From a virus: DNA of 25,424 nt. The stretch is from the IMG/VR virus record IMGVR_UViG_3300035698_021379, positions 1-25,424 of that record; one strand, 5' to 3'. The notes under the pieces are model-generated. The model was not told the DNA's origin. It made no database searches and worked only from the letters and a program-made list of their open reading frames with translations. The translations under genes and the position numbers were made by a program. Below are positions 6,023 to 25,424 of this stretch, one piece after another (the stretch's first letter is position 1; each line of letters opens with the position of its first letter).

Positions 6023-6023
6023 C

Positions 6024-8828: not shown

Positions 8829-8835
8829 ACCTAAC

Positions 8836-8892: not shown

Positions 8893-8907
8893 AAAAGGAG
8901 AGCAACA

Positions 8908-9852: not shown

Positions 9853-9885
9853 CATAAGCATAAAGCTGATAGGATAATTTGATTT

Positions 9886-10133: not shown

Positions 10134-10139
10134 GAAACA

Positions 10140-10283: not shown

Positions 10284-10299
10284 TTGACAAAATAGGGCG

Positions 10300-10331
10300 A
10301 GGAATAGTCAAGATTCGTTCTAGCTATTCCT
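10300..10331 (+). other. hairpin in the leader of the 118-residue structural gene
   Basis: AGGAATAG (10300-10307) pairs with CTATTCCT (10324-10331) across a 16-base loop, with one further G-U possible outside. A pyrimidine-rich stretch follows. It may be a weak terminator of the preceding gene or a leader structure. It is the third hairpin in successive gaps of this structural block. Confidence 0.35.
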
Positions 10332-10374
10332 TCTCCTTGTTTGAATATTAACGTATTGAAATAGGGAGGGCGAT

Positions 10375-10731: not shown

Positions 10732-10763
10732 GGCAAACCGATGAAAAATAAGGGGTGGATAAA

Positions 10764-11111
10764 ATGGCTACAAAAAATATTACTGTGTATCGCGGTGATA
10801 CGCATGTTTTAACTTGTATTTTTGAAGATAGAGCTGGCGCTAAATTAGATATTACAGGATGGAAACTTTACTTAACGATAAAATATAGTCCTGATGATTT
10901 AGACGCGGATGCAGTACTCACCAAAACAGTAACTTCCCACACTTTCCCACTTTTAGGCCGCAGTAAAATTACCATGACAGCCACAGAAACCGATTCTCTT
11001 TATGGCGATTATTATTATGATATTCAATATAAAAAGACTGATGGATCTATTCAGACGGCCTTAAGCGGCACAATGTTATTTACGAAAGATGAGACTAGAG
11101 GGACATCATAA
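10764..11111 (+). CDS. BppU-N-like immunoglobulin-fold baseplate protein
   Basis: A 115-residue protein when read from ATG 10764; a GTG nine bases earlier is in frame, but the AAGGGG(TGG) site fits the ATG better. The pattern VYRGDTHVLTC, KLDITGWKLYLTIK, AVLTKTVTSH, TMTATETDSLYGDYYYDIQY and a closing DGSIQTALSGTMLFTKDETRG is that of the phage BppU N-terminal Ig-like domain (baseplate upper protein family), which docks tail fibres or receptor-binding proteins on the baseplate. Only the Ig-like domain is present, so the protein may be a connector. Its stop overlaps the start of the LicC-like gene (TAATG), tying structural and glycan genes into one transcript. Confidence 0.7.
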   Translation: MATKNITVYRGDTHVLTCIFEDRAGAKLDITGWKLYLTIKYSPDDLDADAVLTKTVTSHTFPLLGRSKITMTATETDSLYGDYYYDIQYKKTDGSIQTALSGTMLFTKDETRGTS

Positions 11112-11845
11112 TGAAAGCTATTATTTTAGCAGCCGGGATAGGAAAAAGATTATATCAATATACAAATAATATACCTAAATGCATGGTTAAAGTTGATAAA
11201 AAAGAAATAATAAAGTGGGAAATTGAAGCTCTTCTACCATTTGACCTTGAAGAAATTATTGTGATTATAGGTTATAAAGGAAATTTAGTTAAAGAATTTA
11301 TTAATAATAATTTTTTAGTTGGTAATATTAAATTTATTGAAAATAAAGATTATTTAATTACCAGCAATTTACACTCTCTAAAATTAGGATTATCTAAAAT
11401 AAAAAATAAAGATGATATTTTAATTATAAATGGAGATTTAGTTTTTAGAAAAGATGTTGTAAATGAAATTTTAAAAAGTGATTATGAAAACGTGGTAGCA
11501 GTAAATAAAATACCTTGCAATGAAGAAGATATGAAAGTATGCATTAAAGATGTTGCTTATTTTGATAAATATAATTTTAATAGAATTTCTGAAATAAGTA
11601 AAGATATTCCTTTAGACAAAGCTAATGGCCAGGCATTAGGAATTTATAAAATAAAAGATGTTAATGTGTTAAAGAAAAAAACAGAAGAAATTGATAAGAT
11701 GAATTTCTTTAATGAAGCTATAAATCAAATGATAAAAGATGTATCTATTTTTTCTATAGATATTACACAATTTCAATCAATAGAAATTGATTTTCCTAAA
11801 GATTTAGAAGAAGCTAATACGATATTTAAAACGAAAGATCTGTAA
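11111..11845 (+). CDS. LicC-like nucleotidyltransferase (CTP:phosphocholine cytidylyltransferase type)
   Basis: A 244-residue GT-A-fold nucleotidyltransferase. The NTP-binding loop is LAAGIGKRL (residues 6-14), followed by PK at 22-23. IENKDYLITSNLHSL (76-90) resembles the family block of LicC-type enzymes (N-x-x-x-x-T-x-N-x-x-S-L) and INGDL (106-110) gives the metal-binding Asp. LicC activates phosphocholine to CDP-choline; related enzymes use other phospho-alcohols or sugar phosphates, so the substrate is not certain. It starts on the stop of the Ig-domain gene and its own stop overlaps the LicD-like gene, a pairing seen in bacterial lic loci. The pairing is the main support for the LicC reading over a generic hexose-1-phosphate nucleotidyltransferase. 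Confidence 0.72.
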   Translation: MKAIILAAGIGKRLYQYTNNIPKCMVKVDKKEIIKWEIEALLPFDLEEIIVIIGYKGNLVKEFINNNFLVGNIKFIENKDYLITSNLHSLKLGLSKIKNKDDILIINGDLVFRKDVVNEILKSDYENVVAVNKIPCNEEDMKVCIKDVAYFDKYNFNRISEISKDIPLDKANGQALGIYKIKDVNVLKKKTEEIDKMNFFNEAINQMIKDVSIFSIDITQFQSIEIDFPKDLEEANTIFKTKDL

Positions 11846-12459
11846 TGGGAACTGCTTTATATAAAATAAAAGAAAAAGCTAAATTAGCGTTATTTGATAT
11901 AAAAGATATATTAGATGATATGGGCATTGAATTTGTTTTGTTACAAGGAACATTACTCGGCGCTATTAGGGAAAATGATTTTATTGATACTGATGAAGAT
12001 ATGGACTTAGGCGCTAGAATATATGATGTAGCCCCTAGGGTAAAAGAATTAGTATCGCGGCTTCATGATAAAGGTTTTGGAACAAAGTTAGTAAGTTTAT
12101 CTTATAAATTTACTAAAGATATAAAAATATTTAGAAATTCTGTAAGAACGGACTTAGTTACGTATGATTTTTATAATAATAAAATGTTTCGGAGCTTAAG
12201 AAAATGGGATAAGATCAAAGTTTATGACAGAAAATTTATTGATAATTTAAAAGAGATAGATTTTTTAGGGAAACAGTTTAAAGTTTTTTCTGACGCAGAG
12301 GAGTGGTTAGAAATAGAATATGGCGCTCATTGGATAAAAAGAGAACATAGAAGTGGAAAGTTTACAACGGCTATGGTTAGTGGTTATTGGGAAGATATAA
12401 TTCTTAAAAATAAAGGTATTGATTACGGTAAAAACATTGAGGATATCTTAAAGATATGA
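11845..12459 (+). CDS. LicD-family phospho-ligand transferase
   Basis: A 204-residue protein with the LicD/fukutin hallmark: LLQGTLLGAIRENDFIDTDEDMDLG at residues 32-56, that is G-T-x-L-G-x-x-R then D-x-D-x-D-x-G for metal binding. The rest (EYGAHWI, WLEIEYG near 150-160) also fits the family. LicD enzymes move phosphocholine, or in relatives other phospho-groups such as ribitol-phosphate, from a CDP carrier onto a glycan. Its gene overlaps the LicC-like gene by one base (TAATG) and the next gene by four bases (ATGA). The two genes together predict making and attaching one CDP-activated group. The acceptor is not known. Confidence 0.82.
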   Translation: MGTALYKIKEKAKLALFDIKDILDDMGIEFVLLQGTLLGAIRENDFIDTDEDMDLGARIYDVAPRVKELVSRLHDKGFGTKLVSLSYKFTKDIKIFRNSVRTDLVTYDFYNNKMFRSLRKWDKIKVYDRKFIDNLKEIDFLGKQFKVFSDAEEWLEIEYGAHWIKREHRSGKFTTAMVSGYWEDIILKNKGIDYGKNIEDILKI

Positions 12460-13226
12460 AATATATTGTAAGATCACAAATAGACATAGATCATAAGGAC
12501 TGGAGGCCTGGTCAGAAAGGAAGGGTAACTCCTGAATGGGTAAAAGATAGGCTTGACTTATTTCATAATTATACTTTAAAAAGCATACTTAATATGACAG
12601 AAGATTATTTTGATATATGGGTTTTTTGCGGACAATGCTATAAAGCTATAACAAGTAATTATAATTGGCATCCTAGAGTCAAAGTCATATATGATATGAA
12701 TGATTTCCTTAAAAGTTATATTACAAATTGCGAAGAAGATTATTTAACAATTGCAAGAATAGATTCAGATGATTTATATCATAAAGACGCTTTAAACGCT
12801 ATAATGAAAAATTTAGTTAAAGACCCTAATGATATTACCAGAATGGCTTTTCGTAGAGTATATAGTTGGGATAGATGGAGTAATGTTTTAGGAAAATATC
12901 ATCAAAGCCATCCTCCGCAATTTGTTCATACAATACCAAAAAAAAGATATAAAGACTTTGAATATTTTATGAAATTTCATTTTACTAAACATGTTGGCGG
13001 ATCTCATAATGCCTCTACATTACCTGATTATTATTTTTGTGAAACAAGGCATAATCAAAGTTGGACAATTAGAAAAAGACATTCTTGGTCTAAGACTTAT
13101 CAGCATGATGTTTTGTTAAAAGAAACTAAGCAAAGAGGATTTAATAGTGGTAAATATCTTGCTATTGAAAAAGAAGGTTTATTCAGCATACTAAAGAACT
13201 TTGGAGTAGAAAGGGATTTAATATGA
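12456..13226 (+). CDS. GT-A-type glycosyltransferase (rhamnosyltransferase-like)
   Basis: A 256-residue protein. The core LTIARIDSDDLYHKDALNAI (residues 97-116) has the DxDD metal/nucleotide-sugar motif. Together with an N-terminal R-x-Q-I-D, W-V-K-D-R-L-D-L-F and N-Y-T-L-K-S-I-L-N it resembles the putative rhamnosyl transferase family (Rhamno_transf). The C-terminal part is rich in His, Trp and basic residues (ETRHNQSWTIRKRHSW). The ATG overlaps the preceding stop as ATGA, and its own stop overlaps the WbqC-like start the same way. The donor sugar and acceptor are not deducible. It is soluble with no membrane segment, and would act on cytoplasmic lipid-linked or protein-bound glycan. Confidence 0.65.
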   Translation: MKYIVRSQIDIDHKDWRPGQKGRVTPEWVKDRLDLFHNYTLKSILNMTEDYFDIWVFCGQCYKAITSNYNWHPRVKVIYDMNDFLKSYITNCEEDYLTIARIDSDDLYHKDALNAIMKNLVKDPNDITRMAFRRVYSWDRWSNVLGKYHQSHPPQFVHTIPKKRYKDFEYFMKFHFTKHVGGSHNASTLPDYYFCETRHNQSWTIRKRHSWSKTYQHDVLLKETKQRGFNSGKYLAIEKEGLFSILKNFGVERDLI

Positions 13227-13921
13227 TATTAACAGGCCATCAGCCGGAATATATACCTTATATTGGATTTTTCAATAAAATAATGCTTGCTGATAAATTT
13301 GTATTTGTAGATCATATACAATTTAATAAAAAGAGTTGGCAGAATAGAAACAAAATTCGCACTAAAGATGGTCAGCAATGGATTACTGTTCCTGTACTTT
13401 CTAAGAATAAATTCGAACAGAAAATAAATGAAGTAGAAATAGACAATACTGAAAGATGGAGAAAAAAGCATTTAAAGTCAATTATATTAAATTATCAAAA
13501 AGCTCCTTATTTTAAAGAGTATATTGGCTTTTTTGAAGATATTTATTCTAGAGATTGGACAAAATTATCAAAATTAAATATAGAAATTATAAAGCATTTA
13601 ATGAAAATATTAGATATTAATATCAATACATATAACAGCTCTTCTTTAAATTTGAGTGGTAAAAAAACAGATCTATTAATTGATTTATGTAATGCGTTAA
13701 ATGCAGATGGTTATTTATCAGGTTCTGGCGGAAAAGGATATATTAATGATACAAAATTTCAGAAGGCTGGAATAAAAAATCTTTTTCGTGAAATAAAACA
13801 TCCTGTATATACTCAGATATATGAACCTTTTATTTCAAACATGTCTGTTATAGATATCATTTTTAATTGCGGCGCTGAGAAAGCTCGTAAGATTATATAT
13901 AAATGTGGGAGTGTAAAATGA
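13223..13921 (+). CDS. WbqC-like family protein
   Basis: A 232-residue protein, typical length for the WbqC-like family. The N-terminal signature is ILTGHQPEYIPYIGFFNKI (residues 2-20), followed by FVFVDHIQFNKKSWQNRNKI (27-46) and an ITVPV strand; YLSGSGGKGYI (183-193) is the second conserved block. The family is found in O-antigen, flagellin-glycan and modified-sugar loci, and its biochemical role is not settled as far as I know; a part in building or attaching modified deoxysugars is suspected. ATGA overlaps on both sides place it in the same translationally coupled run as the LicD-like, glycosyltransferase and PIG-L-like genes. Confidence 0.85.
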   Translation: MILTGHQPEYIPYIGFFNKIMLADKFVFVDHIQFNKKSWQNRNKIRTKDGQQWITVPVLSKNKFEQKINEVEIDNTERWRKKHLKSIILNYQKAPYFKEYIGFFEDIYSRDWTKLSKLNIEIIKHLMKILDININTYNSSSLNLSGKKTDLLIDLCNALNADGYLSGSGGKGYINDTKFQKAGIKNLFREIKHPVYTQIYEPFISNMSVIDIIFNCGAEKARKIIYKCGSVK

Positions 13922-14532
13922 ATATATTGGCTATAGGTTCACATCCTGATGATATAGTTTTCGGCATTGGCGGAACCTTAATAAAATACTCTAAAAAAGG
14001 CCATAATATTTTTTTGTTAGTAATGACTGATGGTGCTGCGTCTGGAGATCCTGTTATTAGAAAAAAAGAGCAGGAGCAAGTTGCTATGGCATTAAAAGCA
14101 AAGAAATTAATTTGGGGTGGCTTTGAAGATACTAAATTGATGTCAAATAAAAATACTATATCTTATATTGAGGCTATAATTACTTCAGTTAATCCAGATG
14201 AAATTTATGTTAATTATAATAAAGATATGCACCAGGATCATAGAGTATTAGCTCAATCTGTAATTTCTGCTACCAGATACAAAACTAAAGTATTATTTTA
14301 CGAGTGTCTTACATCATGTAATTTTGCTCCTGATATATTTATTGATATAGAAGATATACTTGAACAAAAAATAGAATTATTGAGGAAGCATAAATCACAG
14401 GTTAATAAAGAATATCCTTGTGGCTTAAATCTTGAAGAAAGTTTAAAAGCTATGGCTAATTTCAGGGGGTTTCAGGGTAAAGTAAGATACGCGGAGGGGC
14501 TGAAATCACATAGATTTTTAAAGGAGATTTAA
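13918..14532 (+). CDS. PIG-L/LmbE-family N-acetyl-sugar deacetylase
   Basis: A 204-residue protein read from ATG 13918, which overlaps the previous stop as ATGA; an ATG 15 bases earlier is in frame but less likely. AIGSHPDDIVFGIGG (residues 5-19) carries the HPDD zinc/catalytic motif, TDGAASGD follows, and MHQDHRVL gives the second motif (H-x-D-H). These define PIG-L/LmbE enzymes, which remove an N-acetyl group from GlcNAc-type sugars (GlcNAc-PI, mycothiol and bacillithiol intermediates, some glycans). Here the setting points to deacetylation of a nucleotide- or glycan-linked amino sugar. All zinc ligands that I can identify are present, so the enzyme looks active. Confidence 0.88.
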   Translation: MNILAIGSHPDDIVFGIGGTLIKYSKKGHNIFLLVMTDGAASGDPVIRKKEQEQVAMALKAKKLIWGGFEDTKLMSNKNTISYIEAIITSVNPDEIYVNYNKDMHQDHRVLAQSVISATRYKTKVLFYECLTSCNFAPDIFIDIEDILEQKIELLRKHKSQVNKEYPCGLNLEESLKAMANFRGFQGKVRYAEGLKSHRFLKEI

Positions 14533-14533
14533 T

Positions 14534-15139
14534 ATGGAAACATTATATTTTTCAAGATTTCAAGAAGAAGAGAATATAATTAATAAGTTACTTGGTAAAA
14601 ATCCGGATAAATATCAAGGGACTTATATAGATATTGGATCTAACCATCCTATTAAAAATAGCAATACTTTTTATTACTATATTAGATCGTGGTCAGGCTT
14701 ATTGATTGAGCCAAACTCACAATGGGAAAATGGAATAAAAAAATTTCGGCCTAAAGATATTTTATTACAAGCAGCTATTATAGGGCATAATGGCACTATT
14801 GACATGCGATATGACAGAGTAAAAGGAAATAGTATTGACAAAATACATGAAGGTAAATATCAAGAAAATATATATACTGTAAAATGTATGACAATCAATG
14901 ATGTAATAAAAAAATATCCGCAATTTAGTACCCCTGATTTTATCAGTATAGATATAGAAGGTAGTGAACAAGAAATGTTATCGGTTTGTAATTTTGAAGT
15001 ATTTAGGCCAAAAGTTATTTGTATTGAATATATGCTTAAAAAGCATGACTTTAGAAAGAAGTGGGAACATTTTATTTTGCCATATTACGATTTAAAAGAA
15101 GTTGGAAGAGTAGACCTTTTTTATTTGAGGAAGAAATGA
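14534..15139 (+). CDS. FkbM-family SAM-dependent methyltransferase
   Basis: A 201-residue protein with the FkbM (Methyltransf_21) layout. GTYIDIGSNHPIKNSNT (residues 29-45) is SAM motif I, GLLIEPN (55-61) is motif II with the acidic ribose-binding residue, and FISIDIEGSEQEML (136-149) is the family's acidic motif. The family O-methylates sugars and polyketides, so methylation of a glycan residue is the natural reading here. An AAAGGAG site precedes the ATG. The gene's end overlaps the radical-SAM gene as ATGA. The substrate is unknown. Confidence 0.87.
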   Translation: METLYFSRFQEEENIINKLLGKNPDKYQGTYIDIGSNHPIKNSNTFYYYIRSWSGLLIEPNSQWENGIKKFRPKDILLQAAIIGHNGTIDMRYDRVKGNSIDKIHEGKYQENIYTVKCMTINDVIKKYPQFSTPDFISIDIEGSEQEMLSVCNFEVFRPKVICIEYMLKKHDFRKKWEHFILPYYDLKEVGRVDLFYLRKK

Positions 15140-16404
15140 AGAATATAGATATATTATTAGTTTATCCAAATGTAACTACCGATTCCCCTAATCGATTAAC
15201 TCCATTGTCTATTCTTTTTCCGGGTTCTTTATTTGAACGTAGAGGGAATAAAGTCGCTTATTATGATGAACGATTTGAAGCAAAAGAAAAGTTAATTGAC
15301 TTAATCAAACATTCTAAAGAAATAGGTGTGAGTGCTTTTACTGGTTATCAATGCAAAAGAGCTATTGAAATTCTTGAATTAGCTAAAAGTATAAATCCTG
15401 ATATTATTACTGGTATAGGTGGTAAACACGCTCAAATATTACCGGATCAAGTATTGAATGAGCCTTTTGTAGATAAAATCTGGGGTGAAAAATCTTATGG
15501 AGATGATTTATTTCCATATAATAAACAGACTAAAAAATATTTTCAGTTTGGCGATATTCAATATTTTACATCCAAAGGTTGCCCTTTCAATTGCTCGTTT
15601 TGTGCATTACATTCAAAATGGATGCCAAAGAATTTGAATGATTTAGATCTAGAGTTAAAAACTATACATAAAGATATTCAGTTTAAAGAGATTACGTTTT
15701 CAGATCCTAATATTGCTTTTGGTTATAATATAGAAAGAATTAAAATAATAGGTCAAATAATGAATGACTTAGGGGTAAATTGGATAGGGAATTTAAGATC
15801 TGAATATTTACAACCTCAAATGATAGACGCGCTTGTTAAATCGCGCTGTATTAAATTAGAAATAGGTTGTGAATCTGGAAATGATTATTTTCTTAAAAAT
15901 GTTATTAAAAAAGGTATTGGTATTAATTCTATTAAAAAAGCAGTAAGAAATATTAAGGGTTCAGGCATTTCTATTATGTATAGTTTTATCTCTAATATGC
16001 CTAGAGAAACTGAGGAAATGCGACATAATACCTATGATTTAATAGATTGGATTATAGAGAACGATCCTAATGCCAGGGTATCAATTTATAATTACGCACC
16101 ATATCCAGGAACACCTATGTATGAAGACGCTATTAATGGCGTGGATGGTTATCCAAAGTTTGTTCCACCTACTACAATGAAGGAATGGGGAAACTTAAAT
16201 CTTATGCGATCTTCATTATACTGGATTGCAGGTTTGTGTTTCAGGCAGGATAATTGCTATAAGAATTTCCCTGATAATGATTGGGAATTAATAAAACCTT
16301 ATATTGAATTAGCTAAAAAGAAGTGGAAAGAAAGAAGTTTTAATGATTTTCCTGATAAAGAAGTAGAAATACTTATTGCAAAACAAAAAGATAGGAAGGC
16401 ATAA
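15136..16404 (+). CDS. B12-binding-domain radical SAM enzyme
   Basis: A 422-residue protein read from ATG 15136, which overlaps the FkbM stop as ATGA and has a GAGGA Shine-Dalgarno; an upstream in-frame GTG at 15061 lies inside the FkbM gene and is unlikely. Residues 1-130 form a cobalamin-binding-like Rossmann domain (IDILLVYPNVT, GVSAFTGYQ, GIGGKHAQILPDQVL). TSKGCPFNCSFC (145-156) is the CxxxCxxC iron-sulfur motif (C149, C153, C156) of radical SAM enzymes. The later blocks EIGCESGND and SFISNMPRETEE are typical of the class. B12 radical SAM proteins methylate unreactive carbons or phosphorus, or rearrange sugars and lipids. The reaction here is unknown, but glycan C-methylation or a ring modification fits the neighbours. 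Confidence 0.87.
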   Translation: MKNIDILLVYPNVTTDSPNRLTPLSILFPGSLFERRGNKVAYYDERFEAKEKLIDLIKHSKEIGVSAFTGYQCKRAIEILELAKSINPDIITGIGGKHAQILPDQVLNEPFVDKIWGEKSYGDDLFPYNKQTKKYFQFGDIQYFTSKGCPFNCSFCALHSKWMPKNLNDLDLELKTIHKDIQFKEITFSDPNIAFGYNIERIKIIGQIMNDLGVNWIGNLRSEYLQPQMIDALVKSRCIKLEIGCESGNDYFLKNVIKKGIGINSIKKAVRNIKGSGISIMYSFISNMPRETEEMRHNTYDLIDWIIENDPNARVSIYNYAPYPGTPMYEDAINGVDGYPKFVPPTTMKEWGNLNLMRSSLYWIAGLCFRQDNCYKNFPDNDWELIKPYIELAKKKWKERSFNDFPDKEVEILIAKQKDRKA

Positions 16405-16405
16405 A

Positions 16406-16864
16406 ATGCACAGAGGCGCTTCAATGCACGATATTTGTTTTAGAGGATTAGAGAGAATAATTAGGGATTATAATATCAAAACAGTGCTTGAGTATGGAAG
16501 TGGAATTTCTACTGAATGGTTTGCTGAAAGAGTTGAAAAAGTTTATACAGTAGATCATAATCCAGTTTGGTTTCCGGAAAAATTAAAAAATGTGACTTGT
16601 ATTAGGATGAATAGAAAAGCTATTGGTGCTGATGTCAGGCATATTAAAAAAGATTTTGATTTAGTTTTATTAGATTGCTTAAAAACAGTCAGGCCGGTTG
16701 TGTTTGATTTTGTTAAAAATTTAAGCTGGAAAGTATTTTGTATTCATGATTGGGGCAGAGATAAAAAAAGATATAATAGAGAACTTTATAATCATTTACG
16801 ACAGGCATCTTTTGGACCCTTAAAGGTTTATTATAATGAGATAGAAGAAAAGATTAAAATATGA
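16406..16864 (+). CDS. small class I SAM-dependent methyltransferase-like protein
   Basis: A 152-residue protein from ATG 16406, with AGGAAGG ahead of it; a TTG 30 bases earlier is in frame but has no better support. TVLEYGSGISTEWFA (residues 26-40) is a SAM-binding motif I, VYTVDHN (46-52) motif II and DLVLLDC (85-91) the acidic motif IV, then FCIHDWGR closes the fold. This suits a Rossmann methyltransferase of minimal size. The target may be the same glycan as the adjacent FkbM and radical SAM enzymes; nothing in the sequence identifies it. It ends in an ATGA overlap with the next glycosyltransferase. Confidence 0.72.
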   Translation: MHRGASMHDICFRGLERIIRDYNIKTVLEYGSGISTEWFAERVEKVYTVDHNPVWFPEKLKNVTCIRMNRKAIGADVRHIKKDFDLVLLDCLKTVRPVVFDFVKNLSWKVFCIHDWGRDKKRYNRELYNHLRQASFGPLKVYYNEIEEKIKI

Positions 16865-17538
16865 AAATACCAATTTGTGTAATGACATATGAACGAGCAG
16901 ACTATTTTCATAAATCAATGCAGTCGCTTTTAAAAACAGATTTATCAAAAGGCTCAGTAAATATATTTGATGATTGCAGTCAAGAAGCCGATAAAATAAA
17001 TATTCTTAAAGAATATAAATTAAAAGGGATAAATATTATTATTTCTCATAGGCAATTGCAAACTAAAAGAATGTTTAAAAAAATGCTTAAATACAGCATT
17101 GAAAATTACGATACTGATTGTATTATAATAGTTCAGGATGATATAATATATAATAATCAATGGCTTAATAAACTTTTGGAAATAAAAAACAAGATACCAA
17201 ATTTAGGTATATTGACACCATGGGACAGAAGAAGTAATTTGAAAAAAAATGATGATGGTTGGATATCAAGAAATTTAACAGGATGTAGATGCACTATAGG
17301 AGGAGTGTGCTGGTTAGTAACAAAAAAGTTTGCCTTAGAGGTTTTGAAGATTAAAGATAGTGGTGGTAATCATTATGATAGCGCTTATCAAAAAACTTGC
17401 AATAATAGAGGTTTTGAAATAGCTTCAACTATTCCGAGTTATGTACAGCATTTTGGGGCTAAAAGAATAGTTAAAAAAGGTGGGGGATCGCGTGTAAAAT
17501 TTGCGAGAGCAAGTAATTTTATAGGAGAATACGCATGA
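16861..17538 (+). CDS. GT2-like glycosyltransferase, first of a tandem pair
   Basis: A 225-residue GT-A-fold protein. PICVMTYERADYF (4-16) begins the fold, NIFDDCS (34-40) gives an acidic nucleotide-contact motif and IIVQDDIIYNNQWLNKLLEI (89-108) holds the DxD-like metal site. WLVTKKFALEVL and the DSAYQK / IPSYVQH blocks follow. It is clearly related to the next gene in both protein and DNA. It starts on ATGA of the methyltransferase gene and overlaps its own paralogue as ATGA. It has no membrane segment. The donor and acceptor are unknown; it likely adds a residue to the same glycan as its paralogue. Confidence 0.8.
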   Translation: MKIPICVMTYERADYFHKSMQSLLKTDLSKGSVNIFDDCSQEADKINILKEYKLKGINIIISHRQLQTKRMFKKMLKYSIENYDTDCIIIVQDDIIYNNQWLNKLLEIKNKIPNLGILTPWDRRSNLKKNDDGWISRNLTGCRCTIGGVCWLVTKKFALEVLKIKDSGGNHYDSAYQKTCNNRGFEIASTIPSYVQHFGAKRIVKKGGGSRVKFARASNFIGEYA

Positions 17539-18245
17539 ATATACCGGTATGTTTAATGAGTTATGAAAGGCCTCAATATTTTGAAAAATCATTTGAGCTA
17601 TTGTTAAAAACTGATTTATCTCAAATGGATGAGTTAATTATATTTGATGATTGCAGTAAGACTCCTGAAAAGATTGAGCAATTAAAGGATCTTAAAGAAA
17701 AGGGGTATAGGATTATTAAATCAGATAAATGGGGTGGTACTAAGTATAGTTTTCTTGCCATGCTAGATTATTGTTTTAGTATACATAATTATCCTATATT
17801 TGTATTGGTTCAGGATGATATAATTTATAATGCTCAATGGCTTAATAAACTATTAGAAATATACCCTAAAGTCCCAAAACTAGGCATATTGACATGTTGG
17901 GACAGGAGGCGTTATAGCAAGCCAATTCCGGGCGTTGCTTGGTCATATCGCAACCCTGCGGGTAATGGTAAGGATTGCAGGATGGGAGGGCCTTGTTGGC
18001 TTGTTACAAAGGCTTTAGGCAGGGCAATACTGGACAAAAATGAGCATTTTATAAGAAGTTGCGGCTATGATTCAGCATTTCAGAAGAGAAGTTGGCAATT
18101 AGGTTTTAATAATGCTTGCACTATTCCTTCTTATGTTGAGCATGATGGCCGGCTTTCAATCGCGCATTTGGGAAGACATAGAGGCACAGCGCATAATGCA
18201 CATAATTTTATAGACAAAATAAAGGATAAAAAAAATGCTGATTAG
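17535..18245 (+). CDS. GT2-like glycosyltransferase, second of a tandem pair
   Basis: A 236-residue paralogue of the preceding gene. The shared blocks include LLLKTDLS, IFDDCS (37-42), LVQDDIIYNAQWLNKLLEI (91-109), LGILT-W-D-R-R, YDSAFQK and IPSYVEH. It differs by an extra loop near 128-150 (WSYRNPAGNGKDCRMGG). The tandem order and the highly similar DNA across the QDD block point to duplication with later divergence, probably for a different linkage or sugar. It starts within ATGA of the first copy and overlaps the next glycosyltransferase by 11 bases. Confidence 0.8.
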   Translation: MNIPVCLMSYERPQYFEKSFELLLKTDLSQMDELIIFDDCSKTPEKIEQLKDLKEKGYRIIKSDKWGGTKYSFLAMLDYCFSIHNYPIFVLVQDDIIYNAQWLNKLLEIYPKVPKLGILTCWDRRRYSKPIPGVAWSYRNPAGNGKDCRMGGPCWLVTKALGRAILDKNEHFIRSCGYDSAFQKRSWQLGFNNACTIPSYVEHDGRLSIAHLGRHRGTAHNAHNFIDKIKDKKNAD

Positions 18246-18909
18246 TGTTACTACATTACCAACAAGGATAAATAAGATAGCGCCTGTAATAGCATCTTTA
18301 AGAAAACAAAATATCCCTATTTATTTATGGATACCTAAATATGTAGAAAGATTAGATATGAGTTTTGACGGAAAGATCCCTGATTTCTTAAATGATATTC
18401 ATTGCAGAGTTATTGAGGATAAAGGAAGTCTTACTAAATTTACTGGTTGGAATATTACTGATGATCTCTTTTTTACAGCAGATGATGATACTATTGTACC
18501 TATAGATTGGGCGAAAAATCTTTTGGATTATTATCATGATTCAAAAGAGAAATGTGTTTGTTGCTATAGAGGAAGAGTATTTAAAGGTAAAAAGCCTACA
18601 GCATATAGAAATACTAGACTTGTAGAGGCTCCGAAAGAAGTCAGAAAAGTTGATATAGTAATGAGTAATTGGGGCGCTTTATATAGTAGGGATATGTTTA
18701 CTGATGAAGCATTTAATCATAATAAAGAAATAAATGATGATATAGCTATAGGCGCGTATTTATATAAAAATAAAATTCCTATATACTGCTTGCCATCAAA
18801 AGGCATATCTGCTACCAGAGTTTGTAGAATAGACTCTTTATGGGCGATAAATAAGAAATCAAATAATACTGATAATGCTATAAAAGCATTATGGAAAACG
18901 GAGGTTTAA
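18235..18909 (+). CDS. GT-A-fold glycosyltransferase
   Basis: A 224-residue protein. ISVTTLPTRINKIAPVIASL (residues 3-22) is a typical family-A start with T-x-x-x-R; IYLWIPKYVERL follows and FFTADDDTIVPIDW (79-92) holds the DDD metal-binding motif. NWGALYSRDMF and NDDIAIGAYLYKN (about 166-179) match the acceptor-side region, where a second acidic pair is usual for a catalytic base. The gene overlaps the previous one by 11 bases and closes the run of overlapping glycan genes. The specificity is unknown. Confidence 0.75.
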   Translation: MLISVTTLPTRINKIAPVIASLRKQNIPIYLWIPKYVERLDMSFDGKIPDFLNDIHCRVIEDKGSLTKFTGWNITDDLFFTADDDTIVPIDWAKNLLDYYHDSKEKCVCCYRGRVFKGKKPTAYRNTRLVEAPKEVRKVDIVMSNWGALYSRDMFTDEAFNHNKEINDDIAIGAYLYKNKIPIYCLPSKGISATRVCRIDSLWAINKKSNNTDNAIKALWKTEV

Positions 18910-18910
18910 A

Positions 18911-19159
18911 ATGGCAGAAGATATTAAAAAAGCCGAGATACCAAAAGAATTAAGAGAAAAGTTGGAACAAGCATTAAAATCAGGTAAGTATTTTATCAGG
19001 ATAACATGTGATGTAGGAGGCCCAATTGGCACCGATAACTTAAAGCACTATTGGATAACAGAAAATTTCCCAAAAGATAAATTAAGGCCTACTATCGATT
19101 ATTTTAAAGATGATATTTTGAATAAAGAGTTAGGAGCTAATACAAAAAAATGGGAATGA
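18911..19159 (+). CDS. small hypothetical protein
   Basis: An 82-residue acidic/basic mixed protein that I do not recognise. The N-terminal helix (EIPKELREKLEQALKSGKY) is followed by a short beta segment (FIRITCDVGG) and LKHYWITENFPKDKLRPTIDYF. A strong GGAGG Shine-Dalgarno lies seven bases before the ATG, so it is probably translated in its own right. It sits between the glycosyltransferase run and the HNH endonuclease gene. No motif supports a function. Confidence 0.6.
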   Translation: MAEDIKKAEIPKELREKLEQALKSGKYFIRITCDVGGPIGTDNLKHYWITENFPKDKLRPTIDYFKDDILNKELGANTKKWE

Positions 19160-19650
19160 TGAAAAAAGACCATTGGCTTCATAATAATCGATGTCCGGAT
19201 TGTGGTAAGCATATTTGTGATAGATCTGTGAGATGTTTAAAATGTGCGGCTATTCAAACTAGAAAAAGGTTACTTGGGGGGAAAATACCTGAAAAAGTTA
19301 GAAAAAAGATTGCTAAATCACATTTAGGATATAAACACACACCTGAAAGTTGTGTTAAAATGAGTGAGAATAATAAAGGTAAAAAAAATTATTTTTATGG
19401 TAAAAAATTTATTGGAAAATTAAACGGCAATTGGCGAAAAAAAGTGGGGGTTAATTGTTCTTTTTGTAATAAGAAAAAACAAGTTACTATAAGCTTTTTA
19501 AAGTCAAGGAAATTTCACTTTTGTACAAAAGAGTGTTATTTGAAATGGAGGAGATTACCAGAAAATAATCCTAATTTCGGTAAAAAAGTAAAACTGGAAG
19601 TGAAAGTTCTAGTTGGAAAGGTGGCATTAGCTTTGAGCCTTACGATGTAA
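19150..19650 (+). CDS. NUMOD3-containing N-terminal part of an HNH endonuclease, frame 0
   Basis: The zero-frame product is 166 residues (ATG 19150; ATG 19156 overlapping the previous stop as ATGA is equally possible). It has an N-terminal zinc site (CPDC at 15-18, CLKC at 29-32), then KIPEKVRKKIAKSHLGYKHT and SCVKMSENNKGK, a NUMOD3-type DNA-binding repeat found in phage homing endonucleases, and a second cysteine group (CSFC, CTKEC). After NNPNFGKK the frame-0 sequence becomes unrelated and stops at 19648-19650. The expected HNH domain continues without a gap in the -1 frame (see the next entry), so this is a truncated product unless frameshifting occurs. Confidence 0.75.
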   Translation: MGMMKKDHWLHNNRCPDCGKHICDRSVRCLKCAAIQTRKRLLGGKIPEKVRKKIAKSHLGYKHTPESCVKMSENNKGKKNYFYGKKFIGKLNGNWRKKVGVNCSFCNKKKQVTISFLKSRKFHFCTKECYLKWRRLPENNPNFGKKVKLEVKVLVGKVALALSLTM

Positions 19651-19928
19651 GGTGGAATGATAAATTAAAAAAGTCAGTTCGTAAACGAGATAATTATACT
19701 TGTCAACTTTGTGGAATTACTGAAGAAGAACATATAGTTATTCAAGGCCAAGTTTTACATGTTCATCATATTGATTATATTAAAATAAATTCAGTGCCAA
19801 TAAATTTAATTACTTTATGTTATCAATGCCACGCTAGAACTAATTTTAATCGTGAATATTGGGAAAAATATTTTAATGATTTAATAGAAAAAAGGATTAA
19901 AAATGCCAATAGACAAACAAGCAGTTAA
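19587..19928 (+). pseudogene. HNH nuclease domain, -1 frame continuation of the NUMOD3 gene
   Basis: Reading the A6 run at 19582-19587 with one base re-read gives S-K-T-G-S-E-S-S-S-W-K-G-G-I then SFEPYDVRWNDKLKKSVRKR, a familiar lead-in to HNH domains. It continues with NYTCQLCG, VLHVHHIDY, NLITLCYQCHARTN and ends at TAA 19926-19928. Both CxxC pairs and the HH catalytic site are intact. No ATG, and no other convincing start with a ribosome site, is present in this frame ahead of the domain, so separate translation is unlikely. Possible causes are a one-base deletion in the homopolymer (mutation or sequencing error) or a real -1 shift on A6. The gene belongs with the mobile homing endonucleases of phages. 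It overlaps the next gene by 26 bases. Confidence 0.8.
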
Positions 19929-21882
19929 AAAAATAATTTTAAGGTCACACATGTTACTAGGGGATAGTATCCAATGCACTCCTTTAGTCCGGGATTTAAA
20001 GAAGCAATTTCCGCTTTGGAAAATCAGGCCAGAAACTGCTTTTCAGCATATATGGGATAACAATCCCCATATAGATGAATTTGACGGCGGTGATATTTAT
20101 AATGTAGGCCCTAAACTTGTTACTCAAAGCTCTAAGACTAGTGGGTTACATTTTACCAATGGATTTAGGATGTCATTAGAGGTTCAACTCGATATTCCTA
20201 TTAAGCAAGGATTACTTAAACCAGAACTATTTTTAAGCGAATATGAGAAGAATAAAGTGATTATAGAAGGTCATTATTGGGTAATTAACATAGATTGTGG
20301 GCCTTATGCGGCAAAGCGTTGGTTTGATGAAAGATGGCAGGAAGTAGTGAATAGATTGCCATGGATAACATTTGTACAAATAGGATTATCTAAGGATAAT
20401 ACATATAGATTAAAAGGTGATAATGTTATAGATTATATAGGTAAAACAGATGATCAAAATATTGGACTAAGGGATCTATTCATATTAGTCTATCATTCAC
20501 AAGGTTGTTTAAGCCTAGTATCTTCTTTAATGCATATCGCGGCAGCATTTGAGAAACCTTGTGTTATACCGGCAGGATCGCGTGAGCCTGTAACATTCGA
20601 GGGGTATCAATGGCATAGATATTTACACAAGACAGGCTGCTTGCCTTGCGCCAAGACTACGGCTTGTTGGGCTTGTTCTAAAGCAGGGTGCTTTAAGAAA
20701 TGGTTTCCATTTCAATCAGATGAAATAAAGCAGAAAGAACTAGGCGAAGAAGCATATAAAACTTATAAGGATAAAAAGCAAAAGTTTAATCTAAGCAAAT
20801 GGGCTGATGATAATAAGAGGGATTGGCGGCCAAAGTGTATGGAGATAATTTCGTCTAATGAAGTAGTCAATGCTATTGAATCTTATTATGATGGTGAGAT
20901 ATTAAAAAAACCGGAGAGTAAAGCTAAAATGAATACTAGAAAAATATTCAGGATAGTATCAAATGGTTCTATGTTAGGCGGTGCGGAAAGATCTATGATA
21001 GAAATAATAAAGATGGCTCAGGAAAGAAATTATGATGTGGAATTAGCAACAAGAAATGGGGTACTTTGTAGTGCTATTAGCGATAAATTATCAAATGTAA
21101 AGATTACTAATAAAATAACTTCGTATTGTGATATATTATTATTATACGCTAGTGATATGATATGGGATTTTGATAAGGAAGAATTTAATATATTCAATAA
21201 TTTACAGGCTAAAAGAAAAATTATGGCGCTGACGTACCACATCGGTAAATCAGGCGAGGCAGAGTGGACTAAGAAATTTGACGAATACCTTTTTCTTAGC
21301 TCTGATTTAAGAGATAAATTCTTGAAGAAATTGCCTGATGCAAAAACAAAGGTATTAGCGCCGCCTGTAGATTTAAGCGAATTATTTAAAATACAGCCTG
21401 ATTATAATATACCTTTACATATATTAAGGCATAGCTCTCAAGGTGATAAGAAATACAGCGAAGACATCAATGATTTAATAAATAAATGTAATGCTAAGTT
21501 TTCCTTTATGCCAGCGCCTACTTTTTTGGCAGATAGTAGCAAAGTGACTAAGTATAGTTATAATCAATTTAGTATTAAGGATTTTCTGAGTAAAGGGAAT
21601 TTATTCGTATATAGATTGCCAAAAGATTATCAGGATCAAGGCCCAAGGGTGGTGATGGAAGCCCTCGCGGCAGGACTTCCTGCAATAGCTAATAATCATT
21701 CTGGCTGTAAAGATAGAATAAATAAAGAAACAGGATGGTTATGCGATACTATGGATGAATATATAAGCATAATTAATAGTTTAACTCCTGAAATATTAAA
21801 GAAAAAGGGGATAGCGGCAAAAGAACGAGCTAAGCAAGAATTTAGAAAAGAAAACTGGATTGAAGCGATTATAGAGAATTAA
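19903..21882 (+). CDS. fused GT9-type and GT4-type glycosyltransferases
   Basis: A 659-residue protein with two GT-B enzymes. Residues 10-335 resemble GT9 (ADP-heptose:LPS heptosyltransferase family): LLGDSIQCTPLVRDLKKQFP (18-37), then CLSLVSSLMHIAAAFEKPCV (202-221), the donor-binding block with its conserved S-x-x-M-H-I-A. A Cys cluster CLPCAKTTACWACSKAGC (246-263) is enlarged compared with the C-x-P-C of the family. Residues about 343-655 are GT4-like: SMLGGAERSMIEI (356-368) and GPRVVMEALAAGLPAIAN (580-597), whose E-A-L-A-x-G-x-P is the nucleotide-sugar motif (the usual first E is shifted). M343 could be an old start of the second enzyme. The ATG has AAAAGG about eight bases ahead and lies inside the HNH tail. 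It probably adds two successive sugars. Confidence 0.83.
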   Translation: MPIDKQAVKKIILRSHMLLGDSIQCTPLVRDLKKQFPLWKIRPETAFQHIWDNNPHIDEFDGGDIYNVGPKLVTQSSKTSGLHFTNGFRMSLEVQLDIPIKQGLLKPELFLSEYEKNKVIIEGHYWVINIDCGPYAAKRWFDERWQEVVNRLPWITFVQIGLSKDNTYRLKGDNVIDYIGKTDDQNIGLRDLFILVYHSQGCLSLVSSLMHIAAAFEKPCVIPAGSREPVTFEGYQWHRYLHKTGCLPCAKTTACWACSKAGCFKKWFPFQSDEIKQKELGEEAYKTYKDKKQKFNLSKWADDNKRDWRPKCMEIISSNEVVNAIESYYDGEILKKPESKAKMNTRKIFRIVSNGSMLGGAERSMIEIIKMAQERNYDVELATRNGVLCSAISDKLSNVKITNKITSYCDILLLYASDMIWDFDKEEFNIFNNLQAKRKIMALTYHIGKSGEAEWTKKFDEYLFLSSDLRDKFLKKLPDAKTKVLAPPVDLSELFKIQPDYNIPLHILRHSSQGDKKYSEDINDLINKCNAKFSFMPAPTFLADSSKVTKYSYNQFSIKDFLSKGNLFVYRLPKDYQDQGPRVVMEALAAGLPAIANNHSGCKDRINKETGWLCDTMDEYISIINSLTPEILKKKGIAAKERAKQEFRKENWIEAIIEN

Positions 21883-21954
21883 TAATAATTTTTTAAAATG
21901 TAGATAAAGTGTTAGATTTTAATAGTGACTAAATAATAAAAAAAAGGAGAATAA

Positions 21955-22497
21955 ATGAAGTGTATTAAAATGAAAATTAGAAGAGACAAGACTCAAAAAG
22001 GGACTCATTACGAATATCCCACACCTCATTATGATGCAAAGAGAGTCCTCTTCGGCCCAGTGTATGAGGCAGTCCTTGAAAGAAAGGTTAATGAGGTTGA
22101 TGAAAGAAATAAATCTAAGACGATTGGCGAAGAATTCATTATAGTAGGGGTAGATGAGTTGGATGCTTCTTTATTCTTACAAGCTAATGGATTTATTAAA
22201 AATGGGTTTAAATTTGAAGCTACAGAGATTGATGAATCCTCTGTTATCACATATGGTGATGATTGGACAGAGCAAATAGAAAAGATAACAGACCAAAATA
22301 AAGTTAACGAAATAGCAAAGAAAGTTGGGAAAGGAGAGCAATTAACTCAAGAAGATATGGATGCTCTTAATCCTGATAAACCCGAAATTGTAGGGATAGG
22401 AAAATCAAAATCTTTTTTAGAAGATTTGACAAAAGCTAAAGCAGAAGCAGAGCAAATCAGAGCAGATAGAGTGAGAAATAAAATTATTGAGGAATAA
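21955..22497 (+). CDS. hypothetical protein
   Basis: A 180-residue hydrophilic protein that I do not recognise. Residues 1-90 mix beta strands and loops (HYEYPTPHYDAKRVLFGPVYEA, EEFIIVGVDELDASLFL); residues 105-180 are mostly charged helix ending KAKAEAEQIRADRVRNKIIEE, a likely coiled coil. A clean AAAGGAG Shine-Dalgarno lies six bases before the ATG. A 72-base AT-rich gap without a clear promoter or terminator precedes it, the longest in the glycan region. It could be a virion protein rather than a glycan enzyme. Confidence 0.65.
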   Translation: MKCIKMKIRRDKTQKGTHYEYPTPHYDAKRVLFGPVYEAVLERKVNEVDERNKSKTIGEEFIIVGVDELDASLFLQANGFIKNGFKFEATEIDESSVITYGDDWTEQIEKITDQNKVNEIAKKVGKGEQLTQEDMDALNPDKPEIVGIGKSKSFLEDLTKAKAEAEQIRADRVRNKIIEE

Positions 22498-22498
22498 A

Positions 22499-23008
22499 AT
22501 GTTTTCTACTCCAGTGTATATAACAGATGATTTATGCCCAAGCAATTTAAAGTTCTTTAAGTATTGGGATAAAGTTAAAGAAAAAAAACCCGAACTTAAA
22601 TTGATTGCTTTCACAATAGCAAATTTTCAGAATAAAGAATTAATATCTGAAAGTCGTAAATTTGAAAAATGGTTTGAAAAGAATAAAGATTGGGTTGAGA
22701 TTGGTGTACATGGATATGACCATTTGTATCCACCCGAAGCTGAACGAGATAATTTTGAAGAACAAGTAATTAAAGCTTTTAATGTTCTTTCTCCTTATTT
22801 ACCAGATAAATATGGTTATCGTTCACCTGGTTTTAAATTTACAGTTCGATTAGAGCCATTATTAAAAAGGTTGGGATTTTATTACATAGCTTATTCACAG
22901 CATATTAAGATTTTAGAAACGGGTAAGATTATACAGCCGTTGATAAATACTCATTGTTGTGATAAATATGAACAACCTATAACTGAAATATGGAGGAATT
23001 TATGTTAA
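22499..23008 (+). CDS. polysaccharide deacetylase-like (CE4/NodB-type) protein
   Basis: A 169-residue protein from ATG 22499, with GAGG six bases ahead; a TTG 12 bases earlier is in frame. VYITDD (residues 6-11) supplies the catalytic/metal Asp pair, GVHGYDH (69-75) the H-x-x-x-H zinc ligands, and GYRSPGF (106-112) the R-x-P loop of CE4 enzymes. NTHCC (150-154) holds the late His. CE4 proteins remove N- or O-acetyl groups from polysaccharides such as peptidoglycan, chitin or capsule. The protein is at the short end of the family and lacks a signal peptide, so it would act in the cytoplasm or virion. It overlaps the next gene by seven bases. Confidence 0.8.
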   Translation: MFSTPVYITDDLCPSNLKFFKYWDKVKEKKPELKLIAFTIANFQNKELISESRKFEKWFEKNKDWVEIGVHGYDHLYPPEAERDNFEEQVIKAFNVLSPYLPDKYGYRSPGFKFTVRLEPLLKRLGFYYIAYSQHIKILETGKIIQPLINTHCCDKYEQPITEIWRNLC

Positions 23009-24333
23009 GCATTATCGTACCTATAAAGAATAATGTAAAGTTGGTAAGAAGTTTAATCGACAGTATTAAGGCATATACAGAAGATTATGAATTAATAATT
23101 GTGAATGATGGTTCTGATATTGAGACAACAGTTTATTTAAAACAAATTGAGAAAGCTTTTTATATTGAGAATCAAAAATCTGTAGGATATCCGAAGGCGT
23201 GTAATCAAGGATTAGAGTTAGCAAAAGGAGAGTACATTGTATTAGCTAACAGCGATACAGTAGTTACACACAATTGGTCACAAGATATGATTAATCACTT
23301 TGGAAGAGATAAAGGTTTAGGGGTTTTAGGTCCTATCACCAATAAAGTTGAAGGCTATCAAAGTATAGACTTTAATAAAGAGGGAGTAGATTTTCAATAT
23401 TCTGATGTAGTAACGTTTTTCTTCGTAATGATTAAACGAGAGGCTTTTAAGGATATAGGTTTATTCGATGAAAGGTTTGGACAAGGCGGGCAAGAGGACG
23501 CTGATTATTGTATCAGAGCAAGAGAAAAAGGTTGGAAAGTAGGGATAGCAAGAGATGTATTTATTTATCATTATGGCTCAGCTACATTTAGAGATGAATT
23601 AGGACACGATATTCAAAAATCAAAAGAATATGCTAATTCAAGGGTAGATTTATTAAGAGATAAATATCAGGATAAATATGATGCAGGAATAAGGAAGAGA
23701 ATATTTATAGCAATACCTTCTGCGAGTGGACATATAGTCTCAGAGTTAGTTAATATTCTTATAGCTTGGACCCACAATCCTTCTTGGATAATTCAACTTT
23801 ATATGCCTAAAGGAATGTTTCCTTTAGATAATGCAAGAAATCATTGTGTTCAAAAATTTCTTGAATCAAATAATGATTATTTACTTTGGATAGACGATGA
23901 TATAGTCCCTCCGGCAGATGGTTTGATTAAATTATTAAAAGCAGATAAAGACATTATAGGTGGCGTCGGCTTTGCTATGAAATATGAAAACGGAGTAGGT
24001 TTTCCTTATCCTGTAACTTTAAGGTATAATGAGGATAAAAAATATATAGTTCATTATGGAACAGGGATAGAAGAATACGATGCGACAGGGGGAGCTTTTG
24101 TTATGTTTAAGAGAAAAGTCTTTGAGGCAATCGAGAGGCCATATCAATTCCGATATTATAGAAATGGGACTTTAGCTCTTACTTGTGATTTCGATGTATT
24201 CCAGAAAGTGCAGAAAGCAGGATTCAAGCTGTTTATAGATAATAGTATTATTTGTGATCACGTAAGAAGCGTAAGCATTAAAGCAATTCAAAATTGTTTA
24301 GCAGCAGAGAAGGGTTTAATTAAAAGAAAGTAA
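23002..24333 (+). CDS. two-domain GT2 glycosyltransferase
   Basis: A 443-residue protein starting at ATG 23002 (GGAGG five bases ahead); an in-frame ATG at 22990 coincides with the Shine-Dalgarno region. Domain 1 (1-230) is a classical GT2: LSIIVPIKNN, LIIVNDGSD (31-39), GYIV-type VLANSDT (80-86, the DxD-like site) and GGQEDADYCIRAREKGWKV (162-180, the base-bearing E-D motif). Domain 2 (233-443) is another GT-A fold: RIFIAIPSASG, PLDNARNHCVQKFLES and YLLWIDDDIVPP (293-304, DDD motif), then GGAFVMFKRKVFE and CDFDVF. Fusion of two such enzymes suggests making a disaccharide or repeating unit. There is no membrane helix. Confidence 0.85.
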   Translation: MLSIIVPIKNNVKLVRSLIDSIKAYTEDYELIIVNDGSDIETTVYLKQIEKAFYIENQKSVGYPKACNQGLELAKGEYIVLANSDTVVTHNWSQDMINHFGRDKGLGVLGPITNKVEGYQSIDFNKEGVDFQYSDVVTFFFVMIKREAFKDIGLFDERFGQGGQEDADYCIRAREKGWKVGIARDVFIYHYGSATFRDELGHDIQKSKEYANSRVDLLRDKYQDKYDAGIRKRIFIAIPSASGHIVSELVNILIAWTHNPSWIIQLYMPKGMFPLDNARNHCVQKFLESNNDYLLWIDDDIVPPADGLIKLLKADKDIIGGVGFAMKYENGVGFPYPVTLRYNEDKKYIVHYGTGIEEYDATGGAFVMFKRKVFEAIERPYQFRYYRNGTLALTCDFDVFQKVQKAGFKLFIDNSIICDHVRSVSIKAIQNCLAAEKGLIKRK

Positions 24334-24336
24334 ATT

Positions 24337-25424
24337 ATGGGAAATTTATTAGCTAATTTTTATTTTGGCGTTTCAGATAAAATCGTTAAATTTAGTGGAT
24401 TTTCAAATTCTATTTTAGACTCTTTTAGCACACCATCGAACTGCCCTTATGGCGTCGCTTGGGACGGAGAAAATACTTATAGTCTTGATTCTGGCATTGA
24501 TAAAATGTATAAACATTCAGGATTTTCTTCAACTGTTTCTGATAGCTTCTCAAGTCCTTCAAGTTCTCCCCAAACTTTAGCTGTTGATGATGATTCTAAT
24601 TTACTTTCCTATGATACCTTGACCGATAAGATATATAGATTTAGTGGATTTTCAGCCATTATATCGAACAGCTTCAGCCAAGCTGATATGGGCGGTGTTG
24701 GATGGGCGGAAGTAAATCTATTGATGGCTTCACAGATTAGCACTGATAAAATATGGAAAATGTCAGGTTTTTCAGATTCTATTTCAGATTCTTTTAGTAG
24801 TCCATCGATGAATGTTTCAGGTGTATCTTGGGATGGAGAGAATATATTAAGCATAGATCGTATAGAGAATGTTTTTTATAAACATTCAGGATTTTCTTCT
24901 ACTATAAGTGATAGTTTTAGTAGTCCAACAACAAATGCTCAAGATCTTGCTTGGGGTTATATTAGTAGTTCTAGTTCATTATCAAGTTCTTCTTTGAGTT
25001 CATCAAGTAGATCTTCATCGTCTAGCTCATCATTGAGTTCATCAAGTAGTTCCAGTTCGTCTAGCTCAAGTTTGAGTTCATCAAGCAGCTCATCCAGTTC
25101 AAGCAGTTCATTAAGCTCTTCATCGTCTAGTTCAAGTTTGAGTTCATCAAGCAGTTCATCTAGCTCAAGTAGTTCGTTAAGTTCTAGTTCGTCTAGTTCA
25201 AGTTTGAGTTCCTCAAGCAGTTCAAGTTTTAGTACATCTTCTAGTTCAAGTAGCTCTGCACCAACATGGGAACATACTGAAATCTATTATTTTAATAGTT
25301 ATGATGTCGGTACAGTATGGGATACTGATCCAGAGAATATGGCTGATGGGAATGAGAATACTTATGCATTAGCGAACTTAGATAATAGTAGCGATGAGGA
25401 AATGCTTGACGCAAATACTTGTGA
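24337..25424 (+). CDS. beta-propeller and Ser-rich tail/adhesin-like protein, 3' end outside the window
   Basis: An open frame from ATG 24337 runs 362 codons to the window end without a stop. Residues 13-205 hold five copies of a roughly 41-residue unit (DKIYKHSGFS, then DSFSSP and a G-V-x-W-D-G-E-N strand), which suggests a beta-propeller. Residues 210-307 are almost pure Ser with periodic Leu, a long flexible linker. From residue 308 a new domain begins (APTWEHTEIYYFN, NMADGNENTY), whose N-M-x-D-G looks like an F5/8-type carbohydrate-binding start. Such propeller-plus-Ser proteins occur in metagenomic phages as tail or surface proteins. The ribosome site is weak. The position after about 13 kb of glycan genes makes it a candidate glycosylated protein, like serine-rich-repeat adhesins. 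Confidence 0.72.
   Translation, partial: MGNLLANFYFGVSDKIVKFSGFSNSILDSFSTPSNCPYGVAWDGENTYSLDSGIDKMYKHSGFSSTVSDSFSSPSSSPQTLAVDDDSNLLSYDTLTDKIYRFSGFSAIISNSFSQADMGGVGWAEVNLLMASQISTDKIWKMSGFSDSISDSFSSPSMNVSGVSWDGENILSIDRIENVFYKHSGFSSTISDSFSSPTTNAQDLAWGYISSSSSLSSSSLSSSSRSSSSSSSLSSSSSSSSSSSSLSSSSSSSSSSSSLSSSSSSSSLSSSSSSSSSSSSLSSSSSSSSLSSSSSSSFSTSSSSSSSAPTWEHTEIYYFNSYDVGTVWDTDPENMADGNENTYALANLDNSSDEEMLDANTC
24373..24951 (+). repeat. five roughly 41-residue propeller-type repeats
   Basis: The unit F/H-S-G-F-S recurs at residues 19, 60, 102, 142 and 183 of the protein (spacing 40-42), each followed about nine residues later by D/N-S-F-S. The second and fifth copies are nearly identical in protein sequence (YKHSGFSST...DSFSSP) but differ at many third positions. 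This indicates old duplication rather than recent copying. Confidence 0.8.
24964..25257 (+). repeat. Ser-rich coding repeat with 39- and 66-base periods
   Basis: Ninety-eight codons, nearly all Ser, mixing AGY and TCN codons. The phrase TTGAGTT recurs at 24994, 25033, 25072, 25138 and 25204, so the spacing is 39, 39, 66 and 66 bases (13 and 22 codons). The Leu it encodes marks the repeat. Periods divisible by three allow length change without frameshift. Confidence 0.85.

Follow-up and report, generated by a model that had tools for sequence, protein, structure and literature searches.

We analysed a stretch of 25,424 bases, hereafter the window, which is the entire IMG/VR record IMGVR_UViG_3300035698_021379 and a linear fragment of viral DNA. 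At its right end lie four genes that, as shown below, recur together in other viral contigs: open reading frame (ORF) A (21955–22497), ORF B (22487–23008), a two-domain glycosyltransferase (22990–24333) and a Ser-rich protein that begins with a beta-propeller domain (24337–25424). Since the linear fragment ends inside this last ORF, the C-terminus of the Ser-rich protein is missing, and 362 residues are encoded up to the contig end. The four genes close a longer series of sugar-related genes that, from 11111 to 25424, are all on the plus strand and mostly back to back. An earlier note on this DNA had described sugar genes directly before a Ser-rich protein, and this gene order is real: the Ser-rich ORF begins at 24337, with 3 bases between it and the stop of the last glycosyltransferase (24333).

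The glycosyltransferase of this four-gene set is a protein of 447 residues with an N-terminal GT2 domain (Pfam E=2e-27) and a C-terminal half in which a family profile revealed a second domain, of the GT-A type. In the alignment of the C-terminal family (alignment A3), two aspartates, D74 and D76, are invariant and make up a DxD-type motif, together with further invariant residues. The nearest solved structure to this domain by profile is STIV A197 (PDB 2c0n, E=6e-4), and we therefore call the domain A197-like. Upstream, ORF B encodes a polysaccharide deacetylase of the NodB type (173 residues, DUF2334-like, with the Pfam DUF2334 match below cut-off); this protein and its homologues keep the catalytic motifs DD, HxxxH, RxPG and N/DxH, and in one relative (L227) a deacetylase of this type is fused to the A197-like domain. 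ORF A is a conserved cassette protein of 180 residues, predicted to form an alpha/beta domain followed by a long C-terminal helix (model pLDDT, the predicted local distance difference test score, 94.2). A comparison of this model with known folds gave no convincing match, the best being to RRM folds at a Z score of 7.4.

The fourth protein starts with a predicted five-bladed beta-propeller (residues 1–207; 24337–24957), modelled by AlphaFold2 as five repeats of four-stranded blades, 20 strands in all, with a pLDDT of 93.7 and a predicted template modelling score (pTM) of 0.90. The model matches NHL and glutaminyl-cyclase propellers in the PDB; its best VIA match, to a glutaminyl cyclase fold, reaches Z 19.4 across 183 residues, and the likeness seen to glutaminyl cyclase is one of fold, at 9–10% identity. 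A viral-contig search with the full Ser-rich protein found no close relatives. When the search of viral contigs was made with the repeat alignment of the propeller only, it returned 19 loci with the same repeats, 18 of them distinct, which places this N-terminal family in 18 distinct viral records besides the window. Among 50,697 records of isolate phages, no member was found at the sensitivity of the search. Two of the relatives place the gene among tail genes: the gene immediately before the propeller/poly-Ser gene encodes a homologue of the central tail fibre J (PHROG 31, E=9e-112) in L221, and a Dit-like gene precedes the propeller/poly-Ser gene in L225. The propeller protein is probably carried on the tail, and by kinship with these relatives the protein of the window may be as well.

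The glycosyltransferase and the propeller recur as a pair. An A197-like domain lies no more than three genes from the propeller gene in 11 of the 16 loci whose upstream side is present. Near full-length homologues of the 447-residue enzyme, at 38–62% identity, adjoin the propeller gene in L226, L220, L229, L238 and L230, and in other loci the homology of the neighbouring glycosyltransferase extends over the C-terminal domain. The propeller protein of L238 is complete, with 225 residues, and its gene comes after those of the glycosyltransferase and the deacetylase. The spacing between the two genes is tight, with small gaps or overlaps. ORF A and ORF B recur before the glycosyltransferase, with ORF A homologues (21–48% identity) found upstream of it in many propeller loci; some relatives lack one or both of these ORFs, and their order is swapped in L257. 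At the level of whole records, GT2 is present on 10 of the 18 distinct propeller records, as opposed to 5 of 42 random ones (p=0.0008).

The same pairing is seen from the side of the enzyme. A reciprocal search with the C-terminal glycosyltransferase domain only was evaluated for the best 80 of 272 loci, which left 64 distinct loci after removal of near-copies; a propeller gene is present in 16 of these 64 and directly adjacent in 14, including all the nearest relatives of the glycosyltransferase. In 73 random loci and 121 poly-Ser loci, the glycosyltransferase family and the propeller family are both absent. On a maximum-likelihood tree of 74 glycosyltransferase domains, the label 'propeller-adjacent' changes six times, at least four of them on well supported branches, which indicates that the pairing is not the property of one recent clade and either has been maintained or came about in several lineages. 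The genes adjoining the glycosyltransferase are also biased in composition: 19 of 117 contain at least 25% Ser plus Thr, compared with 15 of 596 other genes of the same loci (odds ratio 7.5, p=7e-8), and the bias is still found when propellers are removed (8 of 103 versus 13 of 590; odds ratio 3.7, p=0.007), both values being uncorrected for shared ancestry. These observations make a strong case for ORF A, ORF B, the glycosyltransferase and the propeller as a conserved gene set. The link between glycosyltransferases and a virion protein put forward in the earlier note is supported, in both search directions, for the last glycosyltransferase (with its deacetylase) and the propeller, but not for the Ser tract.

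Genes for A197-like glycosyltransferases also stand close after capsid genes in the head/tail modules of other phages, one of them an annotated uncultured myovirus. In three loci of a distant lineage (L300, 5120–6669; L315, 5069–6696; L324, 4969–6660), the enzyme directly follows a Ser-rich protein whose gene lies close after the capsid gene. This Ser-rich protein, with poly-Ser or SPS repeats, differs from the propeller and represents a second, independent pairing of a glycosyltransferase with a Ser-rich protein.

The Ser tract itself follows the propeller domain of the window protein (24964–25257) and was described in the earlier note as a 98-residue Ser run. The tract does span 98 residues, of which 87 are Ser, 8 Leu and one each Arg, Phe and Thr, but its longest pure Ser run is 12. 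Its DNA uses all six Ser codons and is partly tandem, with a 66-bp unit. Only 1 of 73 loci of random viral contigs contains a comparable tract, and the tract is therefore not a product of chance. Poly-Ser ORFs, defined by at least 22 Ser in 30 residues, were detected at no fewer than 117 viral loci in a pattern scan. Poly-Ser is common in environmental phage proteins (L003–L123), sometimes in several genes of one phage (L095, L047), and contigs frequently end within or near such tracts. Among the propeller proteins the tract is present only in some, between or beside the propeller domains. In a protein of 3,664 residues (L230, 4088–15079), dozens of propeller blades alternate with Ser/Thr tracts of 21–403 residues in a mucin-like layout; this alternation points to a linker or stalk role for the tracts. 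We regard the Ser tract of the window as a flexible, optional linker or stalk, which may carry sugars too. In L227, three consecutive Ser- or Ser/Cys-rich ORFs (4423–10333) come after the fusion of deacetylase and glycosyltransferase, and their Cys-studded Ser tracts are unusual.

We compared 48 poly-Ser records, de-duplicated and each of at least 15 kb, with 42 random records. GT2 occurs on 12 of the 48 and on 5 of the 42 (Fisher p=0.18, not significant), leaving 36 poly-Ser records without it. Of the 12 poly-Ser records with GT2, 9 have their nearest GT2 less than 5 kb from the poly-Ser gene, against an expectation of 5.0 (P=0.009), a closeness that may be explained by both genes sitting in the late/tail region. 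FkbM, present on 4 of the 48 poly-Ser and 1 of the 42 random records, was dropped as a second co-occurrence marker, being too rare to tell. An earlier, specific poly-Ser pattern had matched one contig (L003), in which a poly-Ser gene is present and GT2 absent. Within the propeller family (17 loci, the window included), the Ser tract is found in 3 of 12 loci with the glycosyltransferase family adjacent and in 3 of 5 without. On these two comparisons we rejected the Ser tract as a co-occurrence signal, and as a general rule the association of Ser-rich phage proteins with glycosyltransferase islands is weak. The earlier note had taken the tract to be the link to the glycosyltransferases and had stated that Ser-rich proteins equally common in relatives without the island would speak against it; for the tract, this is largely what the counts show.

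The sugar genes upstream of the four-gene set behave differently from it. A comparison of neighbours found almost no homologues of the genes in 11111–21882 in relatives carrying the cassette, and the conserved unit is therefore 21955–25424, with the big island as a variable addition. The entire island, at 11–24 kb of the window, was rejected as a conserved unit, since the recurrence is limited to its last three genes plus the propeller. The variable part (11111–18909, plus strand) encodes NTP-transferase, LicD, rhamnosyltransferase-like, WbqC, PIG-L, FkbM, B12-radical SAM, MTase-24-like and three GT2-like proteins. It is followed, on the same strand, by a fragment of a NUMOD3-type homing endonuclease inside the island (19150–19650; Pfam NUMOD3 E=6e-9) and by a GT9-like/GT1 fusion glycosyltransferase (19903–21882; Pfam GT1 E=1e-6, GT9 E=8e-4). 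Viral-contig searches found no close relatives of the two tandem GT2 proteins, and a search of genome contigs gave no match to WbqC.

The earlier note counted at least seven glycosyltransferase domains, a number that is reached if weak hits are included. At the Pfam cut-off only four remain: the GT2 proteins at 16861–17538 and 17535–18245, the GT1 half of the fusion at 19903–21882 and the GT2 half of the two-domain enzyme. Below it fall the GT2 at 18235–18909, the GT9 half of the fusion and the rhamnosyltransferase-like protein at 12456–13226. The modifying enzymes of the earlier note are likewise recovered as NTP-transferase, LicD, WbqC, PIG-L, FkbM, B12-radical SAM and DUF2334/NodB proteins, except that 19150–19650 is the endonuclease fragment and not a sugar gene. 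The 'baseplate-type' gene before the island could not be confirmed, as the ORF at this place (10755–11111) matches PHROG 1084, a family of unknown function.

The left part of the window carries head genes, namely a portal, a D12-methyltransferase fusion and a protease/capsid fusion, which are closest to those of Microcystis phage Mae-JY22 (31–39% identity). The protease/capsid fusion is a single ORF (6099–8828) in which the capsid protein is continuous with a protease-like N-terminus and a scaffold-like central region of high charge, and a viral-contig search found no close relatives of it. The 1,042-residue ORF at 2866–5994 has a D12 adenine methyltransferase in its N-terminal part and contains a long stretch without a Pfam match. 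A DegT-type sugar aminotransferase (357–1526, plus strand; Pfam DegT E=2e-61) precedes the portal gene within the head module and is distant from the sugar island. Between ORFs, at 10231–10277, a 12-bp repeat (AGGCACCTAAAG) occurs in about four perfect copies.

The explanation that we prefer, with confidence about evenly divided for and against it, is that 21955–25424 is a cassette of uncultured tailed phages that would glycosylate the adjacent tail propeller protein in the cytoplasm. The soluble two-domain glycosyltransferase and the NodB-type deacetylase would work in the cytoplasm, where an amino-sugar glycan would be built up and trimmed by them at Ser/Thr positions of the neighbouring gene's product, the propeller protein. 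The propeller protein would be carried on the tail, with the Ser tract as an optional flexible linker or stalk, possibly glycosylated, and the big upstream island could supply lineage-specific precursors or further decorations. We infer the propeller as the acceptor, as well as the O-linkage and the kind of sugar; the putative purpose would be shielding or the tuning of adsorption.

Several points weigh against this explanation. Such a glycosyltransferase is missing nearby in 5 of the 16 propeller loci, and these five include the one with the clearest tail context, L221, whose 54-kb record has zero GT2. None of these proteins has so far been observed to carry a glycan, and adjacency may mean co-inheritance instead of enzyme and substrate. 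Moreover, the contig end leaves the tail location in the window itself unproven, and ORF A has no assigned function.

It is unlikely, in our estimate, that the enzymes serve the host surface, altering the host polysaccharide for seroconversion or superinfection exclusion, with the propeller as a receptor-binding protein that recognises the altered or unaltered glycan and the whole as a travelling host-interaction module. LicD, WbqC, DegT and NodB types are frequent in surface-polysaccharide loci, weak PHROG matches point to GtrB-like O-antigen conversion, and the position of the propeller gene after tail-tip genes in L221 and L225 would suit a receptor-binding protein. On the other hand, hydropathy indicates no membrane segment in any protein of the island (top 19-residue value 1.45), Pfam scans of the window ORFs found no flippase, polymerase or GtrA/GtrC-like gene, and the A197-like enzymes of other phages sit in head/tail modules beside capsid genes. 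As the island proteins are without membrane segments, cytoplasmic protein glycosylation fits better than lipid-linked surface-glycan synthesis.

We consider it similarly doubtful that there is no functional link at all, the sugar genes being late-region cargo, the pair a hitch-hiking block and the Ser tract a mere flexible linker. The widespread occurrence of poly-Ser tracts without GT2, the lack of conservation of the upstream island and the linker-like spacing of the blades in L230 would all be expected under such a scenario, whereas the recurrence of a tight pair across divergent glycosyltransferase lineages and the Ser/Thr bias that remains after removal of the propellers would not. Least probable is that the glycosyltransferases modify phage DNA bases or the capsid instead of the propeller protein: phage glycosyltransferases acting on DNA, capsids and tail tubes are known (PMC12619734), relatives of the domain stand close after capsid genes and the window contains a D12 adenine methyltransferase, but no base-hypermodification gene was recognised within the window and the closest relatives of the glycosyltransferase adjoin a propeller gene, not a capsid gene.

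If the preferred explanation of a glycosylated propeller protein is extended beyond the window, we tentatively propose, at less than even confidence, that widespread uncultured phages use an A197-like glycosyltransferase and a NodB deacetylase to decorate a five-bladed tail propeller protein, sometimes built from propellers and Ser/Thr stalks strung together like a mucin, with amino-sugar glycans that are positively charged and in part deacetylated; this would control adsorption or shield the virion. To our knowledge, glycosylation of the virion by phage enzymes is established in few phages, and most phage glycosyltransferases have no known acceptor. The recurring pair of enzymes and putative acceptor is a small and concrete system, in which the acceptor is directly testable in E. 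coli. It also suggests that phage proteins of 'unknown function' in PHROG 1574 may be virion glycosyltransferases, with their neighbours predicting the targets. A literature search, with subscription papers mostly outside its reach, found no description of this pair of a phage propeller and a glycosyltransferase, nor of the recurring four-gene cassette.

Finally, we compared the locus with known systems. The analogy drawn in the earlier note was to the serine-rich-repeat glycoproteins (GspB, Fap1 and other SRRPs), which share with the window a Ser-rich protein encoded beside glycosyltransferases. This analogy does not hold further: neither the GtfA nor the GtfB model was matched when the island glycosyltransferases were scanned against NCBIfam, the ORFs of 11111–25424 gave no Pfam hit to accessory Sec genes (SecA2/SecY2/Asps), and no export signal was found at the N-terminus of the Ser-rich protein, which belongs to the propeller (top 19-residue hydropathy 0.79). 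In contrast to the serine-rich-repeat loci, the conserved partner here is the propeller and the Ser tract is optional. The gtrABC clusters of the P22 type also have phage glycosyltransferases near receptor-binding genes, but they depend on a lipid carrier and on membrane proteins, none of which was found here.

The closer parallels are viral systems that decorate their own virion. STIV is a cytosol-assembling virus with a glycosylated coat protein, and its A197 has been called a strong candidate for glycosylating that protein (PMC4187194). The C-terminal domain of our glycosyltransferase resembles A197 in its GT-A profile and its DxD motif; A197, however, is a single-domain protein of an archaeal virus with no known pairing with a deacetylase or a propeller. 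In mycobacteriophages, phage enzymes glycosylate the virion (Freeman et al. 2023, cited in PMC10877033, PMC11256854 and PMC12619734), which, as far as the citing papers describe it, is a near-precedent for phage-encoded glycosyltransferases decorating the phage's own virion proteins. Going by the same descriptions, the capsid and tail tube are modified there, whereas the proposed acceptor here is a five-bladed propeller protein, and the present system would be set apart as well by a NodB deacetylase and ORF A in a recurring cassette and by an enzyme of the A197-like family.

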